The translations under genes were made by a program, and so were the position numbers. This document shows positions 4,629 through 48,475 of a stretch of 64,000 nucleotides of DNA, one piece after another. The notes below the pieces were generated by a model. That model saw nothing but the letters and a program-made list of their open reading frames with translations, did not search any database and was not told the DNA's origin. Source of the stretch: Trachythela sp. YZ-2020 (lineage: Eukaryota; Cnidaria; Anthozoa; Malacalcyonacea; Clavulariidae). The stretch's first letter is position 1, and each line of letters starts with the position of its first letter. The stretch covers positions 186,001 through 250,000 of the forward strand of contig JADLSH010000382.1 of the NCBI GenBank assembly GCA_016169945.1, given 5' to 3'.

Positions 4629-4723
4629 GAATGTGTACAAACTGTGAAAAAAAGTTAAAACAAATGCAGCCTGAAACTGATGCCGTATCAAGTATTTCAA
4701 TGGATTTTGACAAGCTTCAATTG
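4629..4723 (+). CDS. Transposon gene exon 2 (short)
   Basis: This 95-base exon begins after ATTAAG and ends at a donor TTG|GTGAGT. It completes the split codon left by exon 1 and leaves phase 0, which fits exon 3. It encodes about 31 residues beginning MCTNCEKKLKQMQ, with a CxxC pair and a charged helix. The acceptor has a weak pyrimidine tract, so the exact start is less certain than the end. Confidence 0.5.
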
Positions 4724-4812
4724 GTGAGTAAAAAATTTCTGGCATGTGAACTAAAAGAGTAAATAAAATACAACTGATTCCCCAACCAGGGTGGTAAAAA
4801 GTGGGGAATTCC

Positions 4813-5220
4813 TAGCCTGCATAGCCGGCCCTCGTTTGAAGTTAGGGCTTGATTTGAAGCAGCCATGTGGGAGGAAAGAAGGCCTGCAATCAAACCCCCA
4901 TTTCTGGAATACATGCCGTTCAATTTCTGGACTGAGAATACTAGAATTTGAATGGCGAAACATATAATTCACATGTTTATGCACAAGTGAAAACATTGTT
5001 ACATTTCTTCCTCTTGATTGACATGTTTACGCACAAGTGATGTACATTTCTTTCTGTTCGGGGTTTTCCCCTATTTCAGCTAAGTTTTTTTGGTCAATTT
5101 TCACAAGACTATTAGGGCGTGTAGTCCATAAATGGGGGTTTGATTGCAGGTCCTCTTTCCTCCCCCATGACCGCTTCGAATCAAGCCCTAACTTCAAACG
5201 AGGGCCGGCTACGCAGGCTA
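4813..5220. mobile_element. MULE-type MITE with 9-bp target duplication (in transposon intron 2)
   Basis: The two ends are inverted copies of about 115 bases that begin TAGCCTGC. Both sides carry the same 9-bp duplication GGGAATTCC (4804-4812 and 5221-5229). A 9-bp duplication and long TIRs are typical of Mutator-like elements. The element at 38139-38337 has the same first bases and also a 9-bp duplication, so the two belong to one TIR group. No ORF of note lies inside. Confidence 0.85.
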
Positions 5221-5325
5221 GGGAATTCCCAATACGCATGGCGCTTAATTTTTAAACCGTAACTACGCGTCATGGATAATTTTTTGACCCATCATACATC
5301 ACACATATTACGTTGCGATCACGTA

Positions 5326-5614
5326 CAGGGCCGCCGAGATGGGGCGGAGGGGGGGGGCAACTTGAGAGAGAGCCTAAAATTGAGCAGGTCCCGTCAAAAT
5401 GTAGGGGTCGGTGTATAAAGGGCCTACTTGCAGATTGAGAGCATTTTTGAAATTGGGGGCCCCTTTTTAAGTTAGTTCCACTTGCATTCTAGTTGGGACC
5501 CCTTATATGCCTTAGCACAGTTTTAGTCTTTTTCTGCTGTTTGAAAATAATGACGTCATAGTGCCCACAGAGAAAATTTTGCCCCGGGCCCCGCGAATTC
5601 TCTCGGCGGCCCTG
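5326..5614. mobile_element. hAT-type MITE (in transposon intron 2)
   Basis: The ends are CAGGGCCGCCGAGA and its inverse TCTCGGCGGCCCTG. The flanks ATCACGTA (5318-5325) and ATCACACA (5615-5622) look like an 8-bp duplication with two later changes. CAGGG termini with an 8-bp duplication are typical of hAT elements. The inside is G-rich and non-coding. The rest of the intron (5615-6053) holds short imperfect palindromes around the motif atcaca and no gene. Confidence 0.75.
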
Positions 5615-6053
5615 ATCACACATCATGCATCACGCGGCTTATTTGAGAATGTAATCTCAAATCACGCAGCTAATTTTGGTGCTATCATAATCACACAGAG
5701 TCTCTAAGTAATCCCGCCCAACCGCATTTCCATACCACAGAAAGCCCACTGGGCAATGAGCTGACTACAAAATCTACTACACTTAAAGCGGTGACGTCAT
5801 GATGATCATTGTGGTTAAAGTTTGAGAATTAAAGTAACCAGTGAAACAAAACTAAAAATGCATTGACACTAAATGATAATTATAGATGTTTCCAATTAAG
5901 GGGTGAGTCCGGCGCGCAAAGCATAAGTGGAAAAATCACCGGCCCTGGCGCGGCTACTAATCAATGCTCACATCTATATTTTTTTATAAACAAGATAATG
6001 TAAAAACGTAAAAAAAACGTGAATGAAATGTTGATATTTTTACATTTGTATAG

Positions 6054-7073
6054 ACAAATAAAGATCCAGAAGTCTCCCTTAAAACACCACTGATTTCAAC
6101 TCCAGTTGCATCAGCCTCTGCAGTACACGATACACCAGTGAGCCTTTATCAGCCTTCACAGGCGCCATCAGTATCTTTTATTTACGAAGAAGATAAATCC
6201 TGTGAGACACCTACAGACCACCTAAACGCATTTCTGGCATCACGCGACATAAGCCCAATCCGCCACTCCTTGACAACGTCGTGGGACACAGCGTCCTCGC
6301 GAACAAAACGGCATCACTCTCGAAAGGCGAAACAAGCTGTACAAGCATGTCTCGAAGAAATTGCGCCCCAAGACCACAAACAACTTTTTAACTCAGTCTG
6401 CAGTTCTTATAACACTTGTGTAAATATAGATTCCACTCTGCTAGACGCACTTACTGAGTGCTACAACAACGCTGGTCATTGGAGTACGCGAAGACAGATT
6501 CTGTCAATTATTGCAGATAAAGTCAGCTTTAAAGAACTACAGAGGTGGATTCCAGACCTTTCCAGGTACCGTTACAACATCGCAAGGCATCATCGTCTCT
6601 TACACGGAAGAGGTTCCGTTGTTCTTGCCCCGTCAGCAACCAGAATGTATGTTCCACCAGAAAAACTAGACCACTTTCTATCATTTATTACAAGTACGCA
6701 TGTTGTACAAGATCTGCCCTTTGGCGAAAAGTCTCTCAAATTATCCTCAAATACCGAAATTAAAGTACCAAATGTAATCAGAACAATGATCCCTGAGCAA
6801 ATTGTTAAGCAATACCAAAGTTATTGTAATGAGTCAGGCTTTGCTCCAATGAGTAGAAGCACCTTGTACCGAGTACTCAAGTTATGTTCAGCGTCGGTAC
6901 GGAAATCACTGCAAGGTTTGGATAGCTTCTCCGCTGAAGGGGCTAAAGCTTTTGAAGATCTGGAAGGGATTGTGGACAAACTTGGTGATGAATATGGAAA
7001 AGGCCTTACGTGGGCAAAAGAACAAAATGAAAAGCTAAAACTTTCCAAGAGATATCTCAAAACTGACTACAAG
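6054..7073 (+). CDS. Transposon gene exon 3: large helical domain
   Basis: The exon opens after TTTGTATAG in phase 0 and ends at AAG|GTAAGT in phase 0. It encodes about 340 residues without a stop. The first ~90 are Ser/Pro/Lys-rich and probably unstructured. The rest (from about KQAVQACLEEIAPQ) is helix-rich and includes a segment MSRSTLYRVLKLCSASVRK that looks like a helix-turn-helix. No named domain is recognised. It sits between the zinc-binding N terminus and the DDE-like region, a common place for target-recognition helices. Confidence 0.7.
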
Positions 7074-7090
7074 GTAAGTGACCATTAATA

Positions 7091-7312
7091 AAGGGGGCGC
7101 AGCCAGGATTTTCCAAACGGGGGGTGAGGGGGGGCACAAGTCCGGGAAAGCTGCAATTTATTTTGTTCCCTCACAAACACCGAACCAAAAAATAATAAAA
7201 AAAGGAAGCGAAACCAGAATGTTAAAACCAGGCTAACAGAGAGAATGGCAAATATTGTACTCGACATGATGGGAGACTACGGCCCCCTGCCACCCTTCTC
7301 GCTACGCCCCTG
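7091..7312. mobile_element. hAT-like MITE remnant in intron 3
   Basis: The 304-base intron 7074-7377 is mostly one short element: its left end reads AGGGGGCGCAGCCAGG and its right end CGCTACGCCCCTG, which are imperfect inverted copies. GGGGCGTAGCC-type ends are common on animal hAT MITEs. I could not identify a clean target duplication, so the boundaries are approximate. Confidence 0.5.
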
Positions 7313-7377
7313 AATGATTGATTGATAGACAACACATACATTGCCTTTAAAGACTTCTACGTACATCTTTCTTACAG

Positions 7378-8796
7378 GTTCACATCTCGCAAAGTTCCAC
7401 AGTACCTGATCACTGCATACGATACAGTCTTAGCTGTCCCGATGACAAAGACTACAATTCGTCTTGTGGTCATGAACATAATGAAAGGTGTGACCGCTGT
7501 GAAGTGTTTCCTGGTGTTATTTATGAGGTTGACACAGTTTTAGACAACCTTGAAGATGGAGCTGAAAAAGATGAAATGAAATATGACTTCAAGCACTCTG
7601 TTGACAAAATTGAGGCATGGAAAGCTCATCTGCTCCGTTCAATAAATCAAGACCAGTCGAGGTTAGATATTCTCCAAAATCTGGGCCCAGAGTCAGCACT
7701 CCTTGTTCTTGATTGGGCCATGAAATTTCTGCCAAGGAAGTTCCGTGAGGCCCAGAGCGATTAGTTTGGTAAACGCGGCATCAGCTGGCATATAACAGTA
7801 GCTATCCGAAGAAATGAGGAGGGGAAAATGCAAATGCTTACCTTTGTACATGCATTTGAAAAGTGCATCCAGGAAAGCGACACAGTCTTGGCAATCATTG
7901 ATAATGTCTTCAGCCAGCTTAAGTCAATTGTACCAGAAATTAAAACAGTCTTTCTTAGACAAGACAATGCTGGATGCTACCACTCTACTTCAATGTTGTT
8001 ATCAGTCCACCGAATAGCTACCAAGAACAACATCCATCTATCCCGTGTTGATTACTCTGAACCTCAAGGGGGTAAAGGATCGTGCGATCGCAAAGCAGCA
8101 ACGATAAAATGTAAAATAAAAGTTTATCACAACGAAGGTCATGATATTGAGACAGCAGAACAGATGGTAGAAGCGATAGAGTCAGCACGTGGTATGCAAG
8201 GGGTAAGGGTAACGTTACGTGGGCAGCAAACTAGCCAGTTACCTTTTCCAGTGAAATGGGAGGGAATCAGTTTTCTTAACAACATGGAACTCAGCGATGA
8301 AGGAATACGAGTCTGGAGAGCCTATGGGATAGGACACGGCAAACTCTTATTGTGGAAAGATTTCGATGTACCAGAGAATCACCAATTCCCTACCCTTAAT
8401 ACTGTAGGTGAACTTAGCGCTCGCACATCCTCCAATTCATTCACTGATGTCACCGCAAGACGACGTTCCAACAAAAGCGATGCAACAAATCAAGCTGAGA
8501 TAGTTGTGCAACAAGAAACAGCAGATGATAATTTTGAACCTGAGGACGAGAGTTTGTTCTTTTGCTCAGAAGAAGGCTGCATCAAGTCCTTCCAGAGATA
8601 TTCTTCGCTTCAAAACCACATCGACTGTGGTAAGCACGAGTACGTTTTAGAGCGTGAAACCCTGTTCGACAAGGCAATTATGATGTACGCAGCTAAACTT
8701 GAGCAAGGAGCAACTTGCGATGTGCCACAGATCTCTGAAGGCCTTCCCTCTGTGCTAGTAGATGAGCCGCCTACACTGAAAATGGGCGGGCGCTAA
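7378..8796 (+). pseudogene. Transposon gene exon 4, first part: DDE-like transposase candidate with C2H2 finger (in-frame TAG)
   Basis: The exon starts after CTTACAG in phase 0 and reads through a Cys/His cluster (SSCGHEHNERCDRCEVF, near 7455-7510). A TAG at 7762-7764 interrupts the frame, which continues unchanged to 8796. Candidate catalytic acids are the Asp in LVLDWAMKF just before the stop, the Asp in LRQDNAGCYH (near 7963) and a Glu or Asp in SEPQGGKGSCDR (near 8060-8090). This spacing fits an RNase-H-fold DDE transposase but is not proof. Near 8566-8640 there is a C2H2 finger (C-x4-C, H-x5-H). A one-base loss near 8787 shifts the frame. Confidence 0.65.
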
Positions 8797-9326
8797 AAAG
8801 TACCAAGAAGCGCAAGCGACACTCAGAAAAGCAGAAGCAATATCTACTAGAAATTTATCAGATTGGCGAGCAAACTGGTCAAAAGGCTGAACCTGTATCC
8901 GTTTCAAAAGCCATGAGAAAAGCAAAGCTGTCCAGTGGCGAACCAATGTTCACTGCCTCAGAATTTTTGACATCACAGCAAATTGCAAGTTTCTTTTCGC
9001 GTGTAACAGCAAAAAAGAAAGAATGTCAAGATTTTGATGAATTTCAAAGAGACAAACAGGAAGTTGAAACAGAGAAACTATTACAAGGTTTGCAAAATGA
9101 GGTTATTGATGTAGTTTCCACGCACCATCCAATCATGTACGACACGTACAACCTCTGCGACTATGCCTCCCGCAAGAAGCTAGACAGGTTTTCTATTTTG
9201 GTGCTAAAAGATATATGTTCCTCTTTTCAGCTAGATGTTTCTAACATCAGAGTTAAACGCAAGAAACCGTACATTGACCTAATAGTGAACTTAGTCGAAA
9301 AGTGTACATGCCAATACAAATGCTAA
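8797..9326 (+). pseudogene. Transposon gene exon 4, C-terminal part: HTH-like and SAP-like segments, out of frame
   Basis: Coding resumes in another frame right after the frameshift. A basic stretch (KSTKKRKRHSEKQ) leads into a segment with EFLTSQQIASFFSR, which looks like a homeodomain-type helix-turn-helix. The last ~50 residues (DRFSILVLKDICSSFQLDVSNIR onward, in pieces) resemble a SAP-type DNA-binding helix pair. The ORF ends 57 bases before the right TIR. All three features suggest DNA binding by the same transposase, which is disabled in this copy. Confidence 0.6.
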
Positions 9327-9382
9327 CATAATTTACTAGCGGATGAGCATTGTATACACAAGTACTACAATACCGAACAGAA

Positions 9383-10326
9383 ATGTCAATCAAGTGACAT
9401 TGTACATTCGCCGTGCTTTATCTCGATTAACGATCTAGCCAACATTATATGAACCTTGACTTGGCAATAACAGCTTGATACTTCATTTCTGGGCTAAAAA
9501 TCAAGAATAAAGGAGAGAAGAAAGTTCAACTTGCTACTCCAAAGAAATTCAAGAAATGAAATGTCAAATAATTTGTTACAATCGGATTATACCATGCTGA
9601 CTTTATTACGCGAAACCGGATGCGATGCTCTTAAACTGGGAAACAATTGATAAACAGCAGTTGAAGCTTTTAACTTCAATAACTATACAAGGTAAGAGTT
9701 TATGCTTAAGTTTTACAAATGTTACGCGGTAGTAAACGTGACTCATTGTATAACCCACTAGACTATCTTGTCGATTTCAGTTGGTCACTGGTATTTGAAT
9801 TTTACATAACTTTGACCTCGCCTCTCGTAAATACGATTCAAATACACAAATAAATTTTTACATCGTTTGAATCGCGGTCACTTCGTCTTTTAAAATCTTG
9901 AAGCTTGTTGGATTTAATTGTATCGCTCATAGTTAAAATGACAATTATTTCGAGGCTACTTTTACAGTAAGAAAAAGTATAGCTGATAAGAAAATTCGTA
10001 ATAAATTCCACATTTTAGCAAAATCTGCAATAATGATCGTGAATGAAGAATAAATGGCAAGCAAAAGGAATGTGATGTTATCATTATCAAAGGTTAGATA
10101 GTTTCGTTGCACGAGGTCACTGAAGTAGGCCAATTTGAGGCACTAAAAATTAGCATAATTACTCGTTCCGACTAAAATCCTTATTTCTCAAAAGGAAAAA
10201 AATATTTTCACTAATAAACTTCACCATGATGATTGGGACATAATAGGCTGTCAATCCTGAAAATATGAGCGAAATCGATTTTTCAAGACTTGCCACGAAT
10301 TGTTTGGTGCTTACTGACATCTGCTC
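9383..10326 (+). repeat. Right terminal inverted repeat of the TTAA transposon
   Basis: This is the reverse complement of 3098-4050 with scattered changes. It ends GCTTACTGACATCTGCTC followed by TTAA at 10327-10330. The minus-strand frame at 9945-10133 is a chance frame in the repeat. Confidence 0.9.
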
Positions 10327-10330
10327 TTAA

Positions 10331-12426: not shown

Positions 12427-12432
12427 TAAATA

Positions 12433-12845
12433 GACCGGGAGCCCATAGGGTTGAGCTTAGTTGGAAAGTTAACCAACATTACTCCACATGCATGCTTATA
12501 TCGGGAAATGGACGTCTGCTAAGCACATACTGGTGGATGTAGTCAGAGGGGGCATGAGGATGAAACTCGGTAATTGAGCTAGATCAGCTTTAACCTGGTG
12601 AAACCTACTGGAAAATGTTCACCATGACCCAGTAAGTCATGAATGACCACTGCCAGACATTTTTAGCGGTGTGGTGGGCCCGCCAGACACCCCTGAATCC
12701 CCAGCCCCATAATTGAGCTAGATCAGCTTAAGAGTTAACCTGATGAAACCTATTGAAAACTGTTCACCACGACCCAGTATATCATCAATGACCACTGCCA
12801 GACATTTTTAGCGGTGAGGGTGGCCCGCCAGACCTTCCTGAATAC
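12433..12845 (+). repeat. Left end of the family A element: terminal repeat plus about two 146-bp subunits
   Basis: After the outermost inverted segment (about 130 bases), two copies of a unit follow that contain gagctagatcagctt, gttcaccacgacccag and gccagacatttttagcgg. The same unit occurs in reverse orientation at 18871-19255. Such end-to-end subterminal repeats often bind transposase; that role is inference. Confidence 0.85.
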
Positions 12846-12952
12846 CACAAAATATATATATGGGAGAGTCCGCTGTACTTATCATTTTTTGGCGCTTTCG
12901 TCTGTTTTGGATCTTTTGTTCATCGGCCCCGACGGCCGCCGAGTGGATGGAT

Positions 12953-13015
12953 ATGGATCCAGAAGAAACAAGGCCAATAGACGCTGCATCTACTAGCAAT
13001 GTTGTCAATCGAGAG
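12953..13015 (+). CDS. Putative first exon of the family A gene
   Basis: An ATG opens 21 codons (MDPEETRPIDAASTSNVVNRE) ending at a donor GAG|GTACTG in phase 0. It lies about 100 bases inside the left repeat array, where a promoter would be expected. The peptide is acidic and has no domain. The acceptor of the next exon near 13560-13590 is not clear, so the link to it is tentative. Confidence 0.35.
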
Positions 13016-13585
13016 GTACTGTATGATTAATAACTATACTCTATAGATATGTGAAGTTGGCGTGATAATTCGAAATCTGAACAATGCAAAATTCAGATAT
13101 TCATTTTGGCTGTGATTGCCCTCCATATTAATTATCATACTGAAAGAAAACTTCAAATATATTATAAATGGAATATGTGTTAAAGTTGTTGTTTTATTCC
13201 ACTAACGTATATACAAAATTATAATCAAAAAGAGCTAAAATAGAACATGAAATTCACGAAAGTTACAGCAATGTCTGAATTATTTTACGCTTCGCAGAAA
13301 AATGTGCTTCGCTATGCTAATTTGCAACCATGTTCATTTCCACAGGAAGTAAAATGTCACGCGGTTCATGAATAAATTATGAGTTAACTTATCATTAATA
13401 TAATAATTAATGTATTAAAAATACCCCGCTGATACGAGCACGACTATCGAGTGACTTTCTAATTTCGATCTTGACTAATCCGTCAAATGTATTCCCCAAA
13501 ATGTCTATTTATATGGTCAGTTCTAATATATAAAAAAATTTCACTATAGTCTATACGTTCGATTTTAACGTCTCATTTACACGAA

Positions 13586-14640
13586 TTGCGAATACCGGTA
13601 TTGCAATTCCCGTACTGCCCAACCTGTCAACACGAACGCAACACGGTTTTTATTTCTGAAATATATCACTTCCAGCACGACGACACAGAGAGGTTTCCAA
13701 CCTTTTACATTTGTCACCCGCCAATAGCGTCTACCGAAGACGAAGGCAAATTGAGAAAGTTCAGTGACAGCACATGGACCAAAATGAAGCATGCTGCGGC
13801 TTTGCGTAACAATTTTAACACAGACAAATACGTTGAGGTTACACAAAAAGTTTTAGTAAGCAGTGATAATGAATCCCTAATTCTCAGCTATCACCCTTCT
13901 AGTTATAAGAAATACAATTCAGCAAAGCGCCCGAAAGAACCCCTACCTACTGACGATGAGCCCGCAACAAGAAAGGCTTGTATCGAGACCAGACGTTGTG
14001 GCGTCCTTCCTAAGTCGGATCAGCAGGGTCTATTGAAAGGAAGAAGTATTTTCTGTGGTAACAGTCGTAAGAAGAGAAATGGAAAAGAGGAGCCCAGAAT
14101 AAAGGTATCTACAGTTGCCGGTTGTGAGTCACTTTGCCAGAGGATAAATAATTCCAAAAACGAACGTATCAAGAGTCTCATTCGCAGTGGTGTGGGCCTG
14201 ATCGCAAAGGAAGCTGAATACCACAAATCCTGCTGTGTCTGGTTCCTGAGAGAGACCGATGTTGATAATGAAGAGAAGCCTAGAGGAGAGAGTTCATGTC
14301 GTCCTATCACAATAGTGCATTTGCATCTCTGGTTTCCTTTATCCAGGACGAGGTGTTAATAAAGCATCGATCGGTATTGGTTAGCGAAATACTTGGCATG
14401 TACACCGGTGTCGGGGGAGACGAGAGAGATGTCCAGGCATACACAGCTCAAAATCTTACCATGAAGATACAAGAGCATTTGAAAGAAAAAGTCGCAATAA
14501 CATTAGTAAACCAGAGAAATGGCAACTTCATCTATAATTCCGTTATTTCAGAAGATGATGCCCGGAATCCCTGCACGAAGATGATGAACGGTATGAAGAG
14601 GATAACAAGTTAAGATGGGCTGCGCTTCATCTTAGATCTC
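13586..14640 (+). pseudogene. Family A gene, N-terminal zinc-binding part (frame-broken)
   Basis: The main frame 13586-14359 holds a Cys pair (CPTCQH), a basic middle region and then a treble-clef-like group: a Cys near GRSIFCGNSRKK and AEYHKSCCVWF about 60 residues on. The second copy of the gene at 42680-43441 shows the same order (CPVC, FHKSC, CFFC, AHKSC). A frameshift near 14300 moves coding into the frame 14296-14613, and another near 14570 shifts it again. Function unknown; probable DNA or RNA binding by zinc ribbons. Confidence 0.6.
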
Positions 14641-15048
14641 AGATTATGAACTTCCAAAAACCAAGACTCCAAACCCTGCAACAGTCCAAAATTTGAAAGA
14701 TTGCGCCGCACAGATGCCAGCACAGCTAGATCTATAGTTGGGCACACATACCAGAATGTGTTGCAAGAAGACGTAAATGCCAATAATAATCCAATTGCGT
14801 ATCGTGTAGGAAGAAACCGACGAAGTTTTGTTGGGAAGGAAAGGGGAATACCACCATTCAAAAAGTCAATCCACACAGCCAAGTTCCTCTTTCCAGCTAG
14901 ATCAGTATCTACTAGCACTTCTTCCAGAGCATCCACGTCAGCATCGTCGACTGCGGAAGAACGGGATGAAAGCAAAATACGACTAAAGATATTGGATCTT
15001 TATTGAAAATAAAGATATTAGAAGCTAATTGAAAGCAACAACACTCCA
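14641..15048 (+). pseudogene. Family A gene, poorly preserved linker
   Basis: The reading from 14640 (ending near VQNLKDCAAQMPAQLDL, about 14720) still looks like family A. Beyond about 14750 the plus-strand frame 14701-15006 is Ser/Thr-rich and shows no family similarity, so this stretch may be an insertion or heavily decayed coding. The 121-codon minus-strand frame over the same bases is the antisense shadow. Confidence 0.35.
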
Positions 15049-15774
15049 TTGTATGCTGGATTCATGAGCAAGTACATCGACAACCACTTACCACTTCAAC
15101 GAATTTGCTACATGGATCCAATATCCCGATCGCCCACCAACAATGATGTGGTAAGAGAGACGATTATCCGGACCTTGAAGGTTGCAAATGAAACTGGCCA
15201 AGATTATGCGGTTGTCACCTATGATTTGCAGGTTGCATTGAAAGCCTACTCAATTCAAGCAATCGAAACCCCTTTGTTCAACAAGCTCTTGGTCATGCTA
15301 GGCAATTTCCACATCGAGTTGGCGTTCTATGGACCAATTGGCACACTCATTAAAGAAAGTGGAATGGAATTTATTCTCACGGAAGCCGACATATTAGCGG
15401 AAGGTTCAATGATGGGATTTATCAAGGAGAAGTTCTACAGCAGATGCACTCGGATTCATGAGCCTTTGCCCAATGTCTTGGAGCAGAAACTGTATGAGCG
15501 CTTTCTCTTTGACACACCTGAAGAAGAGGATGATTCCTTCCAAGAAGTGATGTCTACAGTACCTTTAGACCCTAGACTAGCAGAGGAACACCTTTCCGAA
15601 CCAGTCGTTACCGATCATCTGCAGAGATATGAAGATTATTTCCAGTCGGTTCTCGAGGGAAATCTTGGCTCAACAGCTCAGTTCTGGGCCATTTACATCT
15701 TCCTGATCAATCGCCTCCACCGAGAACTGCAGAGATGCGTAAAGACATTAATGGCTACATTACCATCTTCCTAA
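15049..15774 (+). pseudogene. Family A gene, central domain with conserved Asp and 'LG-FHI' motif
   Basis: A 241-codon frame contains VVTYDLQVALKAYSIQ, then about 25 residues on LGNFHIELAF and IGTLIKESG, then EADILAEGSMMGF and RIHEPLPNVLE. The second copy has the same layout as VITGDQPVYAIGKQVQ, MGSLHIEMNF, IGDWLEASG (40806-41846). The conserved Asp on a hydrophobic strand followed by a helix and LHI/FHI recalls the second acidic strand of RNase-H-type transposases. This is structural inference only. Confidence 0.55.
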
Positions 15775-16570
15775 CGATGCTCTCAGTGTTCAGTGCCCTG
15801 AACCGACCAAACTACGCCAGATGGGGAACACTTTTCCTGCATAAGTTGAAAAGTGCCGGCCCGGAGTTGCGTGACGTATTGGAGAATGGTGCATTTTCCA
15901 TAAGGCGTACCAAGAAGAATTACAACCGATCCGCTGTTGACCTCTCCCTGGAGCAGACAGTAAACCGTGATGCTGGTTCACGAATGACGGGAATCGTGTT
16001 CTTCAGAAATTCTGAGAACGCAATGCGCCGTTGGTCACTGAAAATGACCCAGCGTGCTACGGCAGTCACCGAGCTAAGAACATTCGTCGGGCTTGAAATG
16101 GGAGAAAATGTAACATCTCAATGCCTTCCCTCAAGAATCAAAAGGGACAACCGTCAGATAGCCGAATTGAGTGCAAGAATTGACGAATACTGCAATCCAT
16201 TCAGAGATGATGCTCCGACTTCCTTGGTGAACGTTGCAACCAGTCAAGCAGCATCCAAACCTACTGAAACATACCTACTCAACACGCTGAAAAGAGGTAA
16301 AGACGAAAGAGACAAATTTCAAGACGAATGGAAGAGCGACAACACCCGATTTTTACAACCTGTGAAACGCACGCGGGTGCAGAACTTCGCTGCTTCACTG
16401 CTCAAAACGCGAAGAAGAAATCCAAACTACCTGCTTTTGGAAAAGCCAAAGCAAATGCTGAGAGCCTGAGGGATATGTTCGTACGAATGATCGTATTCGT
16501 TTCAGAGAAGACTGCATTAGACAGTCTCCTACACAATTACAACGTACCCACTATCACTCGCACACTGTGA
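15775..16570 (+). pseudogene. Family A gene, helical 'YARW ... DLSLEQTVN' region
   Basis: The frame 15735-16469 encodes a helix-rich segment with LNRPNYARWGTLFL, IRRTKKNYNRSAVDLSLEQT and the downstream ATSQAASKP. The second copy carries the matching VDHTHYSRWLPIFIQDL and a degraded DQAHEQNN. It overlaps the previous frame by 40 bases, so a frameshift near 15740-15770 is required. At about 16330-16570 the frame breaks again. Function unknown; these motifs always lie between the central Asp domain and the nuclease-like domain in the two copies here. Confidence 0.6.
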
Positions 16571-17036
16571 TGGGGCGCATATGAAAACTGAAAAGTCTGC
16601 TCTGCTGAGGAAGCTCGAGTCCTTACAGACGGAAACAATCACAGACGCAGAGTTACCGAGAAGTTACGTACAGGTCTATGACGGAGGACTTCTTTACATT
16701 CTGTCCTCTCGCAGACAGCTACGGGAGCATCATACGCATCAATGGCTTGAACCATGTTGTCAGTGGTATGTTCAAGGAGGGCTAGTGAAGTCAATGTTTG
16801 CATGGACAAGTATGTGGAGAACTCCATAAAGAATAGTGAAACTGTGAAAGAAAGTCTCGGAGTGCAGTTGACTCAGCATATGCAGTAACCGGGCCATAAC
16901 AGAAAATCAGACAAAGCGGGAAGAAACTTCTCACAAATGGAGTTTTCAAGAATGAATTTGCCTAGTTTCTCTTGAAAGAGTGGAAGAAGGCGAACTACTG
17001 GAATATCTTTGGTGGTAAGGCCTTGATTGCTTCTTA
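16571..17036 (+). pseudogene. Family A gene, degraded stretch before the nuclease-like domain
   Basis: Short plus-strand frames (for example 16581-16829) contain family-like pieces such as KTEKSALLRKLE and PRSYVQVYDGGLLYIL, but stops and shifts occur every few tens of codons. In the second copy this position corresponds to the start of the 39494-40201 frame, where a segment DVVFDVYTEDSLK can be read. No independent feature is supported. Confidence 0.4.
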
Positions 17037-17448
17037 TAGTGGAGAGTGATTACAGTACGTCCCCGACGAACATCGTGAAATCACTGTAACCAGCCCATTA
17101 CACCTCCAAGGCGACAATGAAGAGGCCGATACCCTGATTGCTTTCCACATTGCAAATATTAAAGCAGACGATGTCATAGTGAGAGCATCCGACACCGATG
17201 TCTTGGCGATACTTATTGGTCCTATTGGCCATGTAAGCCCAGATGACAGGACGATGGCCGACATATGCATTATCATGGACTGTGGGGTGGGAAACAGCAG
17301 AAGGTACATCAATGTGACCAACATTACTGATGTCCTAGAAGAGCGCAAACCTGGACTTCCCAGAGCACTGCCTGGATACCATGCCTTCACTGGATGTTAC
17401 TTTACGTCGGCCTTTTACAGATTAGCAAATAATTATTTATTTATGTAA
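17037..17448 (+). pseudogene. Family A gene, FEN/PIN-like nuclease domain with a lost acidic residue
   Basis: In order: QGDNEEADTLIAFHI, about 20 residues, VRASDTDVLAILIG, then about 60 residues, PGYHAFTGCYFTSAF. The pattern acidic pair, D-x-D on a hydrophobic strand, then G-C-D before a helix matches the metal-binding layout of FEN1/XPG-type PIN nucleases (E-A-E-A, D-S-D, G-x-D-Y). Here the Asp of GCD is Tyr, which should remove a metal ligand. The intron donor after TTTTACAG reads ATTAGC instead of a GT, so splicing is probably lost too. The assignment is by motif, not by search. Confidence 0.55.
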
Positions 17449-17591
17449 ACAATCGCTATTAAAAACCATACAACCAACCCAAACTTTACTTAAAAATAGA
17501 GAAAGTTGTCCGGAAAAATAGGAAAATATATTGCAATTGATATATATTTATTACCGTATTATAGTGATTGATACTATATACATTTACTGTT

Positions 17592-17842
17592 TCAGGAAAG
17601 GCAAAACTAAAGCACTCCCTATTGTTGAAAAGGACATGACTGACTGCTACGTTAACCTTTTCATCAGCATGGGTGACGTGAACAGTACTGTTGATCTAGA
17701 TGTTACATCAGAGTTTGTATGCCGAATGTACGCACAGAGCAATCTTAAAAATGTAAATGAAGCAAAACACAAGAAACTGATGCAAATGACTGGCAAAGTT
17801 GATCAGGTGATTAAAACGAGAACCGTAATTAACTTAATATAA
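17592..17842 (+). pseudogene. Family A gene, exon after the nuclease-like domain
   Basis: It opens after an acceptor TACTGTTTCAG and continues the split Arg codon from the previous exon: RKGKTKALPIVEKD. The exon reads on with DVTSEFVCRMYAQSN and KNVNEAKHKKLM. The second copy has the corresponding DVNEARRRLFTKK at 39080-39110. The frame is open for about 80 codons and then runs into non-coding sequence. Confidence 0.6.
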
Positions 17843-17889
17843 GTTGCACTAAAAATAAAAAATGGGACTGGTTGTTTTGAACTCGTACA

Positions 17890-18344
17890 ACAAGCTTGTC
17901 CCCCCCAAAAAAAAAGCTTGCCCCCGATGCATTGTCAACCTCGTTATAGCCAGTTTTGTGGTCCCATCCTGGAAATGCTGAAACACATCACAATAGCTCT
18001 AATCAACAATTTAATTGCTTTAGGAGAATCCACTGGCAAACATAAAAAAGATCGATTGTTCCTTGTTGCCACCTTCTCTTCCACCCCTCAAGATGATGAT
18101 TCAACGAGTGCAGTATGTCACAGCGTTATGGACCCATGCAATCACTGCATTTCCGGAGGAAGGTTTGTCTCCAACCGATTATGGATGGTATGCGGATGAC
18201 AACATTCTAAAGCCAACCTGGTTTGAAGGACCTGCCATACCTAACTCTGAAGAAGAAACCATTAATGGACTGCTGAGTGATTCAGACAAAGCATGGAGTG
18301 AAGAGTCCGATTCGGGAGAAGAACTAGAAGACGACGAGGACTAA
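17890..18344 (+). pseudogene. Family A gene, C-terminal tail, frame-broken
   Basis: The degraded sequence includes LPPLKMMIQRVQYVTALW, then SPTDYGWYADDN, then an acidic tail ending SDSGEELEDDED. The second copy has the equivalent LPPTKDALRQHTKRAIFQ. A proline-led helix, an aromatic block and an acidic terminus close the protein. Stops and shifts lie between 17890 and 18063. Confidence 0.5.
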
Positions 18345-18870
18345 TGACAGACAACAACTCCAGATAATTTGACATTGATTTAACCGAATTGTTGATATAT
18401 GCATTTGGCCATTTATGTTGGCTAGACAATGTTATGCTTAACTTTTTAGGTCGCTTGAATGGGGGTGGAGAGGCTGTTAGTTGCTTGTTTGCAGACGTTG
18501 TATATTTCACACCAAGCGACAAAATACTACCGTCTGCTGATCAGAACGCCAAATTGAGGTCATGTGAATTACAACGTCTGCGAGCAGGCTAGGTTGTTAG
18601 GGACCAGTCATTAATAATGGCTACATTTCATTGTACTAGCATTTCAATGTACTAGCATTTCATTTGATCTTGCAATAACCTCATTTATGAGACCGCACGT
18701 GTGAAGTATTTTCTAGTATTTACTCTTCAGATGCATATATTTTTGTTATTAGGCTGACCCTATTGATGCCAAAAAATTTGGGTCCACTACCTATTCCCAC
18801 CCACCCCCTCTGTCAGTATTAATGACCGGTCCCATGGTGCACTTGGAGGGAACATCCATCAGAGAGAATG
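18345..18870. other. Non-coding stretch inside the family A element
   Basis: It holds no gene. A short repeat aatgtactagcatttca occurs twice at about 18636-18665. The phrase agggaccagtc at 18600 recurs at about 28470, which marks another dispersed repeat. Confidence 0.5.
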
Positions 18871-19391
18871 TCTGGCAGTGGTCATTGCGCTAGACACTGT
18901 GTCATGGTGAACATTTTTAGAAGGTTTCATCAGTTTAACTCTTAAGCTGATCTAGCTCAATTATGGGGCCGGAAATTCAGGAATGTCTGGCGGTCCCACC
19001 CAACCGCTAAAAATGCCTGGCAGTGGTCATTGATGATATACTGGGTCGTGGTGAACTTTTTCCAGTAGGTTTCATCAGGTTAACTCTTAAGCTGATCTAG
19101 CTCAATTATGAGGCCGGGGATTCAGGGGTATCTGGCGGGCCCACCTCACCGCTAAAAATGTCTGACAGTGGTCATTGATGATATACTGGGTCGTGGGGAA
19201 CATTTTCCAGTAGGTTTCACCAGGTTAACGATTAAGCTGATCGAGCTCAATTATGGAGTTTCATTCTCATGCCCACCAGTATGTGCTTGGCAGACGTCCA
19301 TTTCCCGATATAAGCATGCATGTGGAGTATTGCTATGTGTATGAAAATTGGTTAATTTTCCAACTAAGCTCAACCCTATGGGCTCCCGGTC
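18871..19391 (-). repeat. Right end of the family A element: about two and a half 146-bp subunits plus terminal repeat
   Basis: Units start near 18873, 19018 and 19166, giving a period of about 146 bases. Each holds ctgatctagctcaattatg and ccgctaaaaatg. They are reverse complements of the units at 12560-12845. The outer 130 bases mirror the left terminus. Confidence 0.85.
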
Positions 19392-19828
19392 TAAAAATCC
19401 AAAAGCAGACCAAATCTATGACTCAATTTCTGACCGAAACAATTGGACTTGTGTCTGTGGTTACTGTAACATTAGAAAAATCACTATCATCTTGCAGTTG
19501 AGCGTTGCCCCATTGTACACGTAACTGGCGTTCAGTAGAAGTTTGTCTTTCCAATGGTATGACTCAAACCAAGATTCGAAAATGAAAATTTGTAGTTAAA
19601 CACAAATTAAAACGTAAAAATGCATTTGAATACCAATTTATTAAAATCAAAATGTAATAAAATAACATGAAATAAAGTAATGCAAAGTTTACGTACGAAT
19701 TATTAAATTCGACCAGATCTAGTTCGTAAGTTATTATAATAACATTACAATTAATTAAAAGAGTAGAAGGACGTTATAATTGTGGAGTAAATAGTTAAGA
19801 TTCACATTGATTCTTTTGTCAAGTGACA

Positions 19829-24825: not shown

Positions 24826-27800
24826 TTCTATTTCTTAAATAAAATACTTGTCTTCATTAGTGCACACTAAAGTATACTTATGCAGATACATAGTATATAT
24901 GCCTCTGTCATCCATGGCAATGTACATTACTCTTCCAGATTAAAAAATAGAATGAGTATATATATACCTTCTTTACTTGTTGAATGTATTCTGTTTCTCT
25001 CTTGTTGTGATCTTTACTGTGTCTTGTACTGTCTACTAAATGATATAACCGTACATCTTTTATACATTTTCTTTCAATAAATTCATTGTCTCTGATTGGT
25101 TGGATTTTATTTAATCTCCCCAGCTTTGTGCTTTTTGTCGGCATGAACTTGTGTTAAAGAATGTCTTATCCATATTTTTCGTTTCTAAGGAAAACTAAGA
25201 AAGCAAAGACAGCAATTTAGCTTTTAAATCGCACTTCCACGATAATTGTTTTGTTTTTAAAGAAAAGAAACATCAACCTTTCATGTTTACTGCAGATCAC
25301 GCACGCTATGCCTGGGTTTAAAATATTCTTGAAAATAACAAAATTTACCAATGAACAAGCAAACGCGAATATCTAGAACAATAGGAAAAATCAAGACAGC
25401 GACAATTGTAATTGAATCCATGATTCCATGCTTCTGTTATTTCCTGCATGAATATATTATTTGCCTGAGCGGGCCATCAATTTGACATGTAAAAGTATTG
25501 TCGTGCGATGGACTTTAAATACTTCGCCATCCTCTTTATCAGTATGTTTTAATTAATAATAATTGAATTTCCAAATTATTTCAGTTTTCCCAGATTTGTT
25601 ATAATGGCCCAATTGAGAATGCGGAGCAATGATTGCCTTTACTTTAACAGATGGAAGGAAATCTGTAGTTATTTCTTGTACATGATACTGAGCAATTTAT
25701 ATCAATTCTTTTATCTTTTACAGGTAGCCTCATAGATATAATTAAATTTGTCCGAAGACGAATTTATGTCACCATGCACTTATGCCAAATATATAGACAC
25801 GGGTTTGAACAAAACAAGATACGTATCATCATGTGAGTTAGTTAAAATATTTAAAGTGGCCGCATTAAAAGATACTCCTTGCAGTGAAGTGACCTATTTT
25901 CACTAATTATTTTAATTCCCATAGTTGAATATTTTAATGCTCTGTACTACAAAAGGTTCATCTCTTTCTGGGATAAGTGTTGAATGACTAGGTTGAAATT
26001 AGCATTGCAAATTGACTCCTTGAAATGAACAGTGAGATGGGCAAATAAAGGCTACCTTAAAACTTTAAGTGCATACCCAAATTGATATAATTGTCTGGAA
26101 ATAGGAAAAGGGGTGAGCATACACTACACCATTTTAGAAAGCATATTGGTTCAAATATAGATTCCGCCAACTACGAGACCTCAGATTTAAAACCTTTTGT
26201 ATACGAACATGTATTTTTCTTCCCTAGCGACCAGTTCAGGTTTAAAAACGATGGACACTTTCGAATGTATTTTTAGTATCCGTTTTAACCATGTAGTTTC
26301 CTATTGAATATTATACTTTTCCATCATTTGGTTTATATTATTGCATGCTAACCAAATTATTATTGTTATAGCTCTTGTTAAGTGCAATGCAATATTGTAC
26401 ACTAAATAACACAGTAGTATAAAATTTCGGGAAAATACACAATTTTTCGAAAAGTTTGACATTAGGAGTGCTAAAAACACTCGATGTTGAGTGTAAATGG
26501 GGGTTTATCGGTAATGTACATGTTGGAGGTTTTGTCCAACATTTGGGAGTGAATTTCTGCACTGAATTAACTCCTTAAAATTGAAATACTGCAAATTTTG
26601 TCATATAAAATATACACCATGAAGGGCGCATGCATGACTAGCTTATTTTGACTGTATTTAAATACGTCTGCATGATATTCCATGATAAATTTGTATTATA
26701 TTTGACAAAGCATGGTGATTCGAGCAAGTGATATGGAATATTCACGGACATTATGGTTCTGTACGAGGATTTTATATGACTATTATGGCAAAAGTGCTTA
26801 ATTAAAATATAAGTTGTAGTTGTAGTTTAACCAGATTACCTATATGTAAAATAGACAGTGAGATCTACAACATTATATTCATGTTTATCCATTTTGGATA
26901 CTCCTATTGTTTATATACTAAAAACGTCTTTGCTGATTATTCACATGTAAGATAGCTTTTTATGTCACCGACAATACATGTAAGTTAATATGTCTCAAAA
27001 GCATTCCTTTTGCTAAAAGCATTCCTTTTGCTGTGTTTGACTTTAGTCCTGCTATTCGTATAAGCAGTTAGTATAACCTTGAAAGAGATATTGTCGTATT
27101 TATAATGATCTGAAACTCCAAGTAAAGTTTCAAGCATAAAAAAAATACAAATTTATAATGAATGTTTATGAGGGCAATAGCAAAAATATTTACACGTGGT
27201 GAAAGATGGATTTTCTATTTATAATATTTATTTAAAACATGCCTGCGTGATACTATTTCCGCATTCAGTCTCAGCAACTGCATCTATATATAATTAAATA
27301 TCATGAACACTAGACTTTAATGTCGACATATATATGTTATTAGATATTCATTTTCATCAATAGTATAATACATTTCTCAGAATATACCAAATACATTGAA
27401 TATGTTGCCCAGCCAGACATTTTTATTGTCAAAAATTCGTGCATGAAATGATAGCACTTTAGATAAGCACCAATTTGCTGCACCATTGAACTTATAGGAA
27501 AAGGTAATTAAAAGTTTGCTGATTTTCCCATGAAATTTTCTGACCCACGTTTCTTTCTCACATTATTTAACAAAGACAAAGTTAACTAAAAATAATGCAG
27601 CTTAATTGTAAGTGGCGTACAGCTTTAAAGGACCGCAATAAAAAATCATTCACGAAATTCGTATGTCATTGTGAAATTGACAAATTAACAATATGAGTAA
27701 AAGGTATAGCAATTTGATGAAAGGATTCTATAATAGCAAATATAGATCAATTATCATAACCACAAAGTATTCGTTTAAAATTTTCACTGCCGTTTAAGAA

Positions 27801-38985: not shown

Positions 38986-38989
38986 ACCC

Positions 38990-40201
38990 TCCTTGGAATA
39001 TAGCCCTCTTCGTATGCTGACGAAGAGCATCCTTCGTAGGTGGAAGATTTTCGCTTGGACAGGCCTTCTTGGTGAACAAACGTCGTCTTGCTTCATTGAC
39101 ATCAGACAGACTGCTAGTTTTGTCATATAACAAAACAACATAACGCTCAACAGCAATAAGTAGTAGGTCTTCACATGGCTCATATTGATTGCAGAGTGAT
39201 AATCAATACACAATTTAGAAGTAAGAAAATATGAACATTTGTCAGATATTTATAGAAATGTACATCATTTCATGTTCCTGTATAGAACTATATAAATATA
39301 ACATGGCACTTGTTACAAAGAGGTATATAAATATAGGATTCCACATGGTAAAATTTTTTTAAGGTTTTACCTTGAAAAAGGTTCAGTGATTTCAGGAAAT
39401 GATTTCCAGGTATTCCAACATGTCTTCTTTCCTTTGCCACAAAACGCAGAAACTGTATCACGTCCAGTGAAAGCAACCCAAAAGCGCAAACCATCACATA
39501 GATGCATACTTGTGGGCTGGCAGCCAACGTTTATATCTCCCGACACCAAATTCTATCCATAGCCCATCGATATCCAACAGATGAAAAAAGGAAACTGTAA
39601 TAACTATAACATCAGTATCCACTGCTCGTATGGCAATTTTCCGATGACCACAGCCAGCAGCATGCTTTACATGTAGAAACATACGAGTGTCTGCTTCTTC
39701 ATGGTCGCACGGAGTTACGTTATGGTGATCAATATCTCCCGAAGATACCACTTCTTTACTATCTGTTGCCACGACAACTCCTTCAAAACTTTGAATCGCA
39801 GGACAGTTAACAAGATCTTGCGCAAGTAAATGGAACAACTCTGACTTATTTTCATCAACCATTAGAAATTGCTGCCAATTTTTCCATACCGGTGTATCGT
39901 CTTTCGCAGAGATCCTGATACCTTTAGCTCTTCTTTCTCTGGTTTCTGATTTCAAACTGTCTTCTGTATAAACGTCAAAAACGACATCAACTCTTGTAAT
40001 AGTGCCTTGAGAATTCAAAATGAATGGCCAAAAGATGTTTTTATTGTACTCTCCATATGTCTTGGCAGCTGAAGATCTTGTCAATTGTACCACAGCAGCC
40101 CCATCAAACACTTTTGCTGTCACGTCTACTGGTTGAATTTCTTTAGTTTCACCAGTGAGTTCTAGGATGCTAACAAAGTCCGACTTTGTACATTTTCGCA
40201 A
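38990..40201 (-). pseudogene. Family A copy 2: FEN/PIN-like nuclease domain and C-terminal helices
   Basis: The frame 39494-40201 (235 codons) holds DVVFDVYTEDSLK at about residues 72-84, CDHEEADTRMFLH at 165-177 and AVDTDVIVI at 193-201. After a frameshift the helix block continues as VAFTGRDTVSAFCGKGKK (39549-39367), so the Asp missing in the 17.4 kb copy is present here, though its Cys is Arg. A donor CAAG|GTAAAA near 39370 and a downstream exon with DKTSSLSDVNEARRRLFTKK and PPTKDALRQHTKRAIFQ complete the tail. The order of acidic residues fits a FEN/XPG-type PIN fold; catalysis is unproven. Confidence 0.6.
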
Positions 40202-40563
40202 CTTTCCATACTCAGGAATTGAAGGAGGGTAAGAGTGGTTTTCGTGGGCAAATAAGTCAGCCAGATCGCCACTTCTTCATTGGCAGGCAACATAAAGAGA
40301 TGCATATAGTCTGCAGTCATCTTGAAGTTACCTTTAGATGCCGATACCTTTAGATGCCGATGCTCATCAATTTACCTTAGATGCCGATACCGTGTTCTTT
40401 CTACGGAAAAGAGGAAGGCTGTTTTTGGAAATGGTAAGATAGACGGACTTTTCACATGTCACAAGCCTTTTCTGAACATACTCCTTGTATTGATCTCCTC
40501 CAATTTTCTTCGCATTTCTCACGGGCTCGGCAGATTAACTAATGGTTCTTGTCATGACCTGAA
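40202..40563 (-). other. Degraded stretch inside family A copy 2
   Basis: No clear frame is left. A short direct repeat (cctttagatgccgatac, twice near 40330-40360) marks a small local duplication. It separates the nuclease-like frame from the central domain and may include a former intron. Confidence 0.45.
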
Positions 40564-41846
40564 CTAACGAGTCTTCTTCATCACTGAACGGGTTTCCAAC
40601 TTCGATAACAACTCCTTAAAATTCTTCACGTCTTTACGAAATTTGTTTTCATGAGCATCTGTGTCTTCATGGTGCCTTTTCTCTGTTTCGCATTCTTCAT
40701 TCACGTTGAAATTATTTACCAAGCGTGCAATCTCTGGGCCACCAATCATCCATTTCATCAAAGCACTCTCATTATTCAAAATACAAACTTCTCCTCCATC
40801 TGTCTTCACATCCTTATTATTCTGCTCGTGCGCTTGATCTTCTGCCGTACAAGAGAATCGTCTGTCCGTTTTCTTGTACGTAAAATGGCCTTTTTTTTTA
40901 ATTCGCTGAAGATATTTTGGTGTTTCATCTCAAGCATCTTTAGATCTTGTATGAAGATTGGTAACCATCTGGAATAATGCGTGTGGTCTACAGCAAACAT
41001 CCAAGGAACTATCTCGTCAAGGGACTTCACAAACATTTGGAAATTTGATTCTCTAAGACTTCGGATTAGCTTTAGTAGCAATGCCTCCATCTCAATCACT
41101 GTCATCCAGTATTGGAACTGAACAGATGATCGTCGTCTGTCTTCTATCCATTGATGGAAAGGAATATCTTGGTCTGCAGATTCCATGCATGCATTCCATA
41201 ACAGAAGGTAAAGGGCAGCACACGATATTTGGTGTACATAACGGGATCTTTTCACTTGATTTCCTTTAAGCACGCTGTCTGCCCTCCCTGGGGTGTTGAT
41301 GGAAGACTTAACAAGCAGATCTACCCAACCACTTGCTTCAAGCCAGTCACCAATTGCTGCGAGAAAGTTCATTTCAATATGCAGCGAGCCCATCATCATC
41401 ATCAGTTTATCCTCACCATAAAAGTCGGGATAATGCCACTGTACCTGTTTACCAATCGCATAGACTGGTTGATCTCCTGTTATGACTGCTACCTGCCCAG
41501 GGTTAATTTCTTGCAGTATGAGATTAACAATTTTCATTGTATGGCGTACCACAGCTGTTGATACCACGGACTCCTTTAGTAAGGGCAGAAGAGTCGACAG
41601 TGATTTTAGCTGAACTGCAGATAACTGATCCTGCCTCGCCTGAAATACTGACAATGAAATCCGTCCGTTTACATTACTCTTTGTCTCTCTGGAGTTATCA
41701 AAGCAGCGAACCTTTTGAAGCCACTCATCTGCCGTAAATAATCTCGAATTATCGTTATCAGATACGTCTTGTGCACAAACCTGTTGAAGTGGGTATTCCG
41801 AGGCAACTGTTTTGGTAGCAAAAACTGTTGTGTAACTCTTTGTCAA
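40564..41846 (-). pseudogene. Family A copy 2: central domain ('GDQ ... LHIE') and DQAHEQNN region
   Basis: The frame 40806-41846 (346 codons) has VAVITGDQPVYAIGKQVQ near residue 125, MGSLHIEMNF near 155, AIGDWLEASGW near 165 and FAVDHTHYSRWLPIFIQDL near 285. A frameshift near 40870 separates it from the next frame (40564-40809) with LMKWMIGGPEIARLVNNF and HHEDTDAHENKF. Same order as 15049-16570 in copy 1. The GDQ Asp on a hydrophobic strand may be a catalytic strand of an RNase-H-like fold, with the DNID motif upstream as first acid; inference. Confidence 0.6.
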
Positions 41847-41860
41847 TTCTAATGGGACAT

Positions 41861-42698
41861 TTAACCTCTCGATTTCTTTATCAAATGCGTTTCAGATTGT
41901 TCCTCCTCTGGATGTTGGAAGATGGATATGCTGGTACCATGGAAAGCTTCTGTAGCTGTCGCTGAGGATGGGTTATGGTCTATGTTATCTATTGCAGCGG
42001 TGGTAAACAATCCATTCTTAAGTGTAGCTGGACAAACAACCACCTTCTCTTGATAGACTTTACAAAGCTGCTTCGTAACTGAAAGCTCGACATCTTGTAC
42101 TCTGTCATAAGAGACACTCATTCCATAAACTGCAAGAGCTGACACGATCCATTTTTTCCGCGTTTTTGAGTGCAGCATCAATCCAGTATATAAAGGAAAA
42201 GACGTTTCATTTTTCCTCAGATGCTTGGTGGAATCTGATATGGAATTCATACGTTTCTTTTTGACTGCGTTGAAACGAATAAGTTGTGAAATAGCCACTG
42301 CAGCTTTGGCACCTTTGCTATTCACCTCATAAGCGTCGTCCTCTAGAACTGAGTGTCCAAGAATCATGCTTATTAAGCAGTATAATGACGGAGGAACAGC
42401 AGAGTGTTCACCACGTTTTCGAGAATACCGACCGATTGCGGAGTATCGCAAAAAGCTGTTTTTTGACAATATTTGTAGCCTTTGCTAAGCAAGCTACATC
42501 AGTCTGACCACTCAAGGTACAAGCATCAAATATTGCGGCTCCAACATCATTTCCCGGTGTGAGTAAGACATCCCTTCCATGTCTTGTCTCAGAAAGATCA
42601 GACAGCTTCTTAAGAAGGTCTTCTTTAAGCCTAGTGCTGTGAATCCTATCGATACTCCCTTGGGAAGCATTGTATTCGGCTAATCTCGTAGATACCAA
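41861..42698 (-). pseudogene. Family A copy 2: 'DNIDHNPSS ... FHGT' segment
   Basis: Two overlapping frames (42408-42698 and 41861-42469) make one coding path with a frameshift near 42440. Visible are GRDVLLTPGNDVGAAIFDAC, then SQLIRFNAVKKKR, YGMSVSYDRVQ, VVCPATLKNGLFTTAAIDNI and its continuation DHNPSSATATEAFHGTSISI. The D-N-I-D on a hydrophobic strand followed by a second strand looks like the first half of an RNase-H-type catalytic core. Confidence 0.6.
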
Positions 42699-43441
42699 CT
42701 CCTTAGTTCTCTAAGCTTAAAAACAGGTGTTATTTCTTCTGATGATGTAATGCATTCCCTAATGTAGTCTGCAACTTCAGTAACGACAACACCGTACAGA
42801 ATGTCATCTTCAAAATCTGCTGGTGACTTGGAACTTGTCACACGTAGCCTGTTGTAGAGAGCTTTTAAACAACTTTTATGGGCCTCGATTGCTACAAGAT
42901 CTCCCTCACTTAAGTTCGCAAGAAGCTTTTTGTCAGATAATCTTGTAGCGGAATCTCTCTTATCCAAGCCAAGTGTTTGTGCGTTACACAGTTTTGTATC
43001 AGTTTCAGGTTCATCGCAGAAAAAGCAATTTGTGATAAAATTTTGGGCAACAAAGTCCGAGCGTGTATTTTGAGATGGTAGCGAACTTTCCTCGGGGCGT
43101 TCTTCGGTTCTCCTTCTCTTGCTTGCTCGCTCATAGTGATAGTTGTCATAAATATTTCTACATGATTTGTGGAATTTAGCCTTATTCTGTATCAAATCCT
43201 GAAGTAAGTTTTCCCTTTCAATTCTTACCCTCAATGGAGTCAGTAACTGCCCAATGGTATTGAAATTTTGCAAATTTTCAACCACAGTCGAATAACTACG
43301 AGTTCCATCATCTGATGTACTGCAGACTGGGCATACTAATGGACTTGAAGATTCCTCTTCGTATATAAAGCACAGATCCCAATTGATCACTTGGCCAATG
43401 TTGGGTTGGAAAATATGGAAATGTTCCGATGCATTTAACAA
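42680..43441 (-). pseudogene. Family A copy 2: N-terminal zinc-binding domain
   Basis: A 253-codon frame starts at an ATG at 43441. It contains CPVCSTSDDG near residue 36, KFHKSCRNIYDNYHY near 95, the basic KRRRTEERPEESS, CFFCDEP near 140 and EAHKSCLKALYNR near 190. Two C-x2-C ... H-x3-C sets fit two treble-clef or ribbon zinc sites. A frameshift near 42690 breaks it from the next segment. The frame is otherwise intact over 760 bases, so this copy is younger than its many other breaks suggest, or was recently under selection. Confidence 0.65.
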
Positions 43442-47130: not shown

Positions 47131-48340
47131 CGCTCCTTTGCTATCTATTGGCTTTAAATTTTCCGCACTCGGCTACGTTGCAACGCATAGCAACGACCGA
47201 GAAAACCCGGTTTTCTCCGATTAAATTTGTGGAGGAAATTTATACGCCGGTTAGCGCTAAACGGCGTATAAGTTAAACCTCTTTCGTACAACCGGCCCCA
47301 GGGCGCTTAAAACAAGGGCTCGAAGATTTGGATGTAAGTATTAAACAGAAGAAGCACGTTTTGTGTAAACGGCAATGCCCTGTACTACCATAATAACCAC
47401 ATTTACCTACTGTTTATGGCATACAGATGAATTCAGAATTGCAAGAATTCTGTTTTCATCTGTGTGACATAGGTAAATAATTATAGTTATTATGGTAGCT
47501 TTTTCATTCTTCATCATTCATATTTTTATATGAACGGATTAATATGCATTAAAACTTATGCACTGGCTATAGTTCGGCTTTAGCTATCCTTAAGCAAAAA
47601 TAATGTCAACAAAAACATTCCATACCAGAGACGTTAAACTGTCAGCTTACACATATATATATACCTCAAAATATACTGGTACCTCAAAACATACTATGTA
47701 TTAAATGTCTGTGTAAGTCAGCGACAAAGACATCAACCATTTATCTAATTAGTCTAAGTGTTGTTGGTGCTGGAATTTTATCAACAATTGCAAAGTTATC
47801 AAACTGTTATGCAACTCGGGGGGGGGGAAGAAGGGTGTTTGCTGAATGCTTGTAGAATTTTCCATGTAACATCTTATAAGTATGCATACTAGAAAAATAT
47901 GTCAGAATTAAGCAGCCTTCAAAATTCAGCCAATATCTTATCTTATAATGTTTAGAGACCCTGGGGCCTGGGGCATGCTAGCGCTCGAAGGGAATTTTCC
48001 GTCTTGTCGAGGAGGGAATTTTTGTGAAGTTTTTACATTTAATAATTCACCAGTCCTCCACTTCCAACAGCCTTTCAAAACAAATTGCAAAATGGCTTGA
48101 AGAATGTTGATAAAATAATTTAACAAGCGCAATTCCTTTAATCATCTGACTGCTCAATATAGTTCGTAACATGCATGAATAAAATATAGCAATAAGTGTG
48201 CAAGACTATTATCACACAGTCCTGCACTGGTGGAGGATATATGTTGAATCTTAATTTGATTAACTGAATTCTACTGGCTAATGAAAACCTCGCCCTATTT
48301 CAAACCTGACTGGGCAACAAAATTTATCGTCATTTTTAGA
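47131..48340. repeat. Non-coding; middle part repeats sequence near 12 kb
   Basis: Short inverted repeats occur at 47400-47500 (tttacctactgtt / gtaaataattatagttattatggtag). From about 47490 the sequence resembles the left flank of the family A element (about 12000-12110). A run of G lies at 47819-47828. No gene is supported. Confidence 0.5.
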
Positions 48341-48475
48341 CTTACCTAAATATTACTTATACCCAACTTAATCCGATCAAAAAGCAAACCCTATGTAAAC
48401 ACCAAAAGCAGACAAAAAGTATCTAATCTATTCTCTAATTTCTGACCAAAACAAGTCAAGAACCCTACCAAAAAT
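48341..48475 (+). other. Empty target site matching both flanks of the 12.4-19.4 kb element
   Basis: The sequence from acttacctaaatattactta through caaaccctatgtaaa matches 12369-12430, and ccaaaagcagac through aatttctgacc matches 19399-19435. At the junction there is a single TAAACA where the filled site has TAAATA and TAAAAA. This shows the repeat before (or without) insertion. Confidence 0.8.

Follow-up and report, generated by a model that had tools for sequence, protein, structure and literature searches.

A decayed DNA transposon in the anthozoan Trachythela and its protein family, predicted to join a DDE transposase to a FEN1/XPG-like nuclease

We have identified a DNA transposon, now decayed, that is bounded by long terminal inverted repeats (TIRs) in a 64,000-nucleotide stretch of the genome of the anthozoan Trachythela sp. 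YZ-2020 (assembly GCA_016169945.1, contig JADLSH010000382.1, positions 186,001 to 250,000 of the forward strand), hereafter the window, whose numbering is used throughout. The gene carried by the element is a pseudogene. Its protein family is predicted to join, in one chain, a DDE (Asp, Asp, Glu) transposase of the RNase H fold to a flap nuclease resembling FEN1 and XPG. A decayed long-TIR transposon with this protein family, likely belonging to the AcademX lineage, is our best explanation as a whole, and we give it a probability of approximately 0.8. A description made earlier from the letters of the window (the original prediction) had read the gene as encoding a nuclease of the FEN/PIN kind instead of a standard transposase and knew of no named superfamily with such an enzyme.

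Boundaries and insertion site of the element

Extension of the inverted match outward places the element at 12431-19393, with TAGACC...GGTCTA as its outermost bases. The exact 12-mer GACCGGGAGCCC occurs at 12433-12444 on the forward strand and at 19380-19391 on the reverse strand, and these are its only matches in the whole window with up to two mismatches allowed. When 420 bp were taken from each end, the inverted arms were found to run approximately 400 bp inward, with 370 of 399 aligned positions identical. Inside each end lies a tandem repeat with a 145-bp period, present in 2.7 copies at the right end and about two at the left. The precise inverted termini and subterminal repeats of the original prediction are thus confirmed. 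Its span of 12433-19391 is indeed TIR-bounded, although the true ends lie 2 bp further out on each side. A search with a TIR 17-mer found no relatives.

An empty paralogous site, reported earlier at 48.34 kb, was recovered at 48332-48454 on the forward strand. The joined flanks of the element share 106 of 127 alignment columns with it (E = 1e-33 for that stretch alone and 6e-32 for the window). Because three extra bases stand at the junction of the flanks relative to the empty site, the simplest reading is a 3-bp target-site duplication (TSD), AAA, as judged from one copy. In this placement, two bases adjoining the duplication differ between the filled and empty sites. A TA duplication with the ends at GACC was rejected, as it would leave seven extra bases in the joined flanks versus the two predicted.

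The pseudogene and its protein family

Using intact relatives as tblastn queries, a single gene was found on the forward strand at 13697-18314, in agreement with the earlier view that one protein family is the sole coding content of the element; the Pfam scan covered six open pieces of this gene. The reading frames of the gene span about 12947 to 18341 (+) and are broken by several frame changes and stops. Approximately 125 residues are missing near 14734, corresponding to residues 380-506 of a relative designated P0001. The missing stretch includes WDNNDAN (residue 491 of P0001), which holds the first predicted DDE Asp. In addition, the last FEN-like ligand is a Tyr in the window copy, which reads HAFTGCY at 17380-17400. 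This motif had been reported as HAFTGCD, which is therefore a consensus, and 109 of the 110 relatives extending to this place indeed have its Asp. With broken frames and one residue lacking from each of the two active sites, the window copy is unable to transpose itself. Pfam returned no family above cut-off for six open pieces of the gene, which cover part of the open frames in the element, and nothing beyond sub-threshold matches for the read-through C-terminus. Compared with PDB sequences, the C-terminus of the window copy retrieved unrelated rows only (E 0.67 or worse).

A search with the read-through as query gave 131 matches among 7997 candidates scored, and the counts below use 120 of the 131. 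Named relatives among these 120 come from sea urchins, a sea cucumber, a shrimp, a crab, a limpet, a priapulid, a sea anemone, a butterfly and a firefly, and are annotated solely as uncharacterized or hypothetical proteins. Two of the gene models are uninterrupted and show 60-63% identity, namely LOC105437992 of S. purpuratus (1705 aa) and a Lytechinus model (1621 aa). Pfam analysis of six relatives recognized only DUF6589, in four of the six and below cut-off in two of those four, and a literature search found no paper naming DUF6589. A scan of viral_contigs found no relatives of the family. Modelling was based on an alignment of 88 of the 120 relatives; residue conservation was counted on these 88 and then on all 120, and the denominators given here are the rows of the 120 with a letter at that alignment place.

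Enzymes of the FEN1/XPG superfamily have seven acidic metal ligands. The C-terminal region of a relative gave a high-confidence model (predicted local distance difference test, pLDDT, 90) that superposes on Exo1, FEN1 and XRN structures at 10-14% identity, and the seven ligands are kept in 114/115, 114/115, 112/113, 111/113, 111/111, 111/111 and 109/110 relatives. A strict string of all seven, written after the motif was seen, is present in 98 of the 120 relatives and in none of 600 shuffles of them. A profile search against PDB yielded weak Exo1 rows (E 0.93-2.3) alongside ribosomal protein S3, which is unrelated (E 0.8 and 2.4); the Exo1 rows are consistent with a FEN fold and are no evidence by themselves. 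The PIN/FEN reading of the C-terminus was thus upheld by modelled fold and ligand order. Structure prediction, proposed in the original prediction as a check, matched nucleases, and an unrelated fold did not appear. We conclude from a confident model that this domain has a FEN1/XPG/XRN fold, with nuclease activity as a prediction only. FEN1, Exo1, XPG and XRN are host repair or RNA-decay enzymes without a transposase fusion, unlike the protein of the element.

Upstream of the nuclease domain in the same protein, an RNase H fold is predicted with its Asp, Asp and Glu in canonical order, and the contrast originally drawn with a standard transposase is not supported. The predicted region matches the P-element, ISCth4 and Hermes transposase structures with moderate scores; a Foldseek search with the DDE half gave no significant match. 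The Asp preceding LG-(F/L)HI occupies the place of the second catalytic Asp of RNase H-fold DDE transposases, and the three residues are kept in 87/89, 109/111 and 119/119 relatives. The triad is hidden in the window copy because the first Asp is deleted; the third residue, the Glu of DLSLEQ, is present.

Other features of the window

Coordinates are collected in Table 1.

Table 1. Features of the element, its pseudogene and related loci in the window
Feature	Positions	Strand	Basis
Left copy of inferred 3-bp duplication, AAA	12428..12430	.	Joined flanks versus empty site
Whole element, TAGACC...GGTCTA	12431..19393	+	Inverted-match alignment, 12-mer search
Left TIR, including subterminal 145-bp repeats	12431..12846	+	Arm alignment
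Transposase pseudogene, several exons, broken frames and stops	12947..18341	+	Frames, tblastn
N-terminal Cys/His (zinc-like) part: CH.., FC.., YHKSC	13712..14236	+	By eye against relatives
Site of ~125 missing residues, including first DDE Asp (WDNxD)	14722..14743	+	Alignment with relatives
VVTYD, predicted second catalytic Asp	15211..15225	+	Relatives' alignment, structure comparison
LGNFH, conserved His	15298..15312	+	Relatives' alignment
AVDLSLEQ, predicted catalytic Glu	15933..15956	+	Relatives' alignment, structure comparison
VQVYDGG, first ligand of FEN-like domain	16668..16688	+	Relatives' alignment, model
VCMDKY..SIKNSE, second ligand and Lys of FEN-like domain	16796..16840	+	Relatives' alignment
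EEADT, third ligand pair of FEN-like domain	17119..17133	+	Relatives' alignment
DTDV, fourth ligand pair of FEN-like domain	17191..17202	+	Relatives' alignment
HAFTGCY, Tyr where Asp in 109/110 relatives	17380..17400	+	Relatives' alignment
Right TIR, including 2.7 copies of 145-bp tandem repeat	18867..19393	-	Arm alignment, tandem-repeat analysis
Right copy of inferred 3-bp duplication, AAA	19394..19396	.	Joined flanks versus empty site
Second, distant pseudogene, same DDE and FEN architecture	38987..43387	-	Best match P0118 among 120 proteins tried
Empty paralogous target site	48332..48454	+	Alignment with joined flanks

The second pseudogene is 30-37% identical to P0118 over its four long pieces and represents a distant subfamily. 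Pfam gave sub-threshold matches only, and examination of its surroundings between 36.5 and 44.5 kb revealed no long terminal repeats. Just downstream lies a near-perfect foldback (38139-38337) with 73-nt arms that are 97% complementary and a 53-nt loop.

Inverted copies of approximately 950 bp, 94% identical and with ends TTAAGAGCAG, occur at 3094-4048 and 9383-10330; open frames lie between them at 6054-9323, and the three scanned contain no Pfam family above cut-off. The region 3094-10330 looks like a further long-TIR transposon. Inverted copies of approximately 630 bp, 91% identical and about 3.3 kb apart, make 27374-31935 a possible third TIR element. Remains of a BEL/Pao-type retrotransposon are found at 59521-63616 (+; DUF1759, RVT_1 and Peptidase_A17), and an endonuclease piece of long interspersed nuclear element type at 1787-2236 (+; Exo_endo_phos_2). 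A long tandem array of short units at 50536-52172 reads as dipeptide repeats in several frames. A rhodopsin-type G protein-coupled receptor occupies one open frame at 55258-56316 (-); its closest organism-named match is from the octocoral Dendronephthya gigantea (65% identity), and matches without an organism name reach 69%. By this likeness the host is probably an octocoral.

Affiliation, alternative explanations and a proposed mechanism

Academ elements have TIRs, as does the present element. Their nuclease is reported to be of the XPG type; a literature search found no paper pairing the whole word Academ with XPG and none describing an XPG- or PIN-bearing transposase. Academ is treated as a DDD/E superfamily in excerpts of PMC9587614. 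Within it, excerpts of PMC10045372 (2023) describe AcademX, with TSDs of 3 or 4 bp, and AcademH, with TSDs of 9 or 10 bp, and tie this difference to the encoded nuclease versus helicase. A named lineage with a nuclease and short duplications was therefore already in print, contrary to the original prediction. The element combines an inferred 3-bp TSD (one copy versus the empty site) with a predicted DDD/E transposase and with a nuclease recognized by predicted fold and by the ligands of relatives, the window copy itself being broken. It thus shares DDE class, nuclease and TSD length with AcademX as excerpted, and no tested feature differs. AcademH, of the same superfamily, differs by its helicase and longer TSD (excerpts of PMC10045372), and does not fit an element with a 3-bp TSD, a nuclease-like domain and, in the six window pieces and six relatives scanned with Pfam, no helicase match. 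On comparison with Academ by published description only, we consider membership in AcademX very likely.

Since that likeness comes from description rather than direct sequence comparison, and since Pfam offers the relatives nothing beyond the DUF6589 label noted above, a DDE plus FEN transposon lineage that is unnamed and lies outside Academ was weighed. Such a lineage is unlikely given the agreement of nuclease, 3-bp TSD and DDE class with AcademX in the excerpts of PMC10045372 and PMC9587614, and given that Academ elements are frequent in bivalve genomes (mean length 5565 bp; excerpts of PMC10294476). Two further explanations are highly improbable. A transposon with the PIN/FEN nuclease as its sole catalytic engine and no DDE transposase, as originally read, would suit the FEN-like fold with its conserved ligands; the absence of the first DDE Asp from the window copy and the moderate structural support for the DDE half also count in its favor. 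It is opposed by the retention of Asp, Asp and Glu in RNase H order across nearly all relatives, by the structural matches to transposases and by a 3-bp duplication that fits staggered joining of the DDE type. Equally improbable is a captured host gene fragment whose protein is not the transposase. The annotation of the named relatives as uncharacterized or hypothetical would allow it, but a transposase fold is predicted for this very protein, the window holds a second decayed copy, and no further gene was recognized in the element, of which six pieces rather than every open frame were scanned.

The Drosophila P element is not known to have a FEN-like domain and makes 8-bp duplications. The modelled transposase region shows 8% identity to the P-element structure 6pe2. 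A P-superfamily assignment does not fit the 3-bp duplication of the element or the lack of a P-type transposase match by Pfam in six window pieces and six relatives.

In the mechanism that we propose as likely, the zinc and winged-helix-like N-terminal parts would bind the element at its terminal and subterminal repeats. Exposure of the 3' ends and their joining at target cuts three bases apart would fall to the DDE site and would give the 3-bp duplication. The FEN-like site may cut or trim the 5' strand at a junction of single- and double-stranded DNA, thereby releasing the element or clearing flank flaps. FEN-family enzymes act at such junctions, and transposition intermediates of this kind offer them. 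Handling of the 5' strand by the FEN-like nuclease is a possibility that falls somewhat short of even odds. More tentative still is a full division of labor within a single chain, in which the DDE site would act on the 3' strand only and the fused FEN-like nuclease, not the DDE site, on the 5' strand or flank flaps. Such an arrangement would resemble Tn7, in which TnsA and TnsB provide one nuclease per strand. Tn7 uses two proteins, and the fold of TnsA is that of a restriction enzyme, not PIN.

Taken alone, the element is ordinary, being a dead copy from a widespread family that Pfam sees only as DUF6589. Its value lies in a confident model of that family, in which a DDE transposase shares one chain with a FEN-like nuclease and both active sites are conserved. 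If true, the proposed division of labor would be a eukaryotic one-chain counterpart of TnsB and TnsA, and could explain the short 3-4 bp duplications of AcademX versus the 9-10 bp of helicase-bearing AcademH. The model makes it directly testable why a transposase bears a second, structure-specific nuclease.
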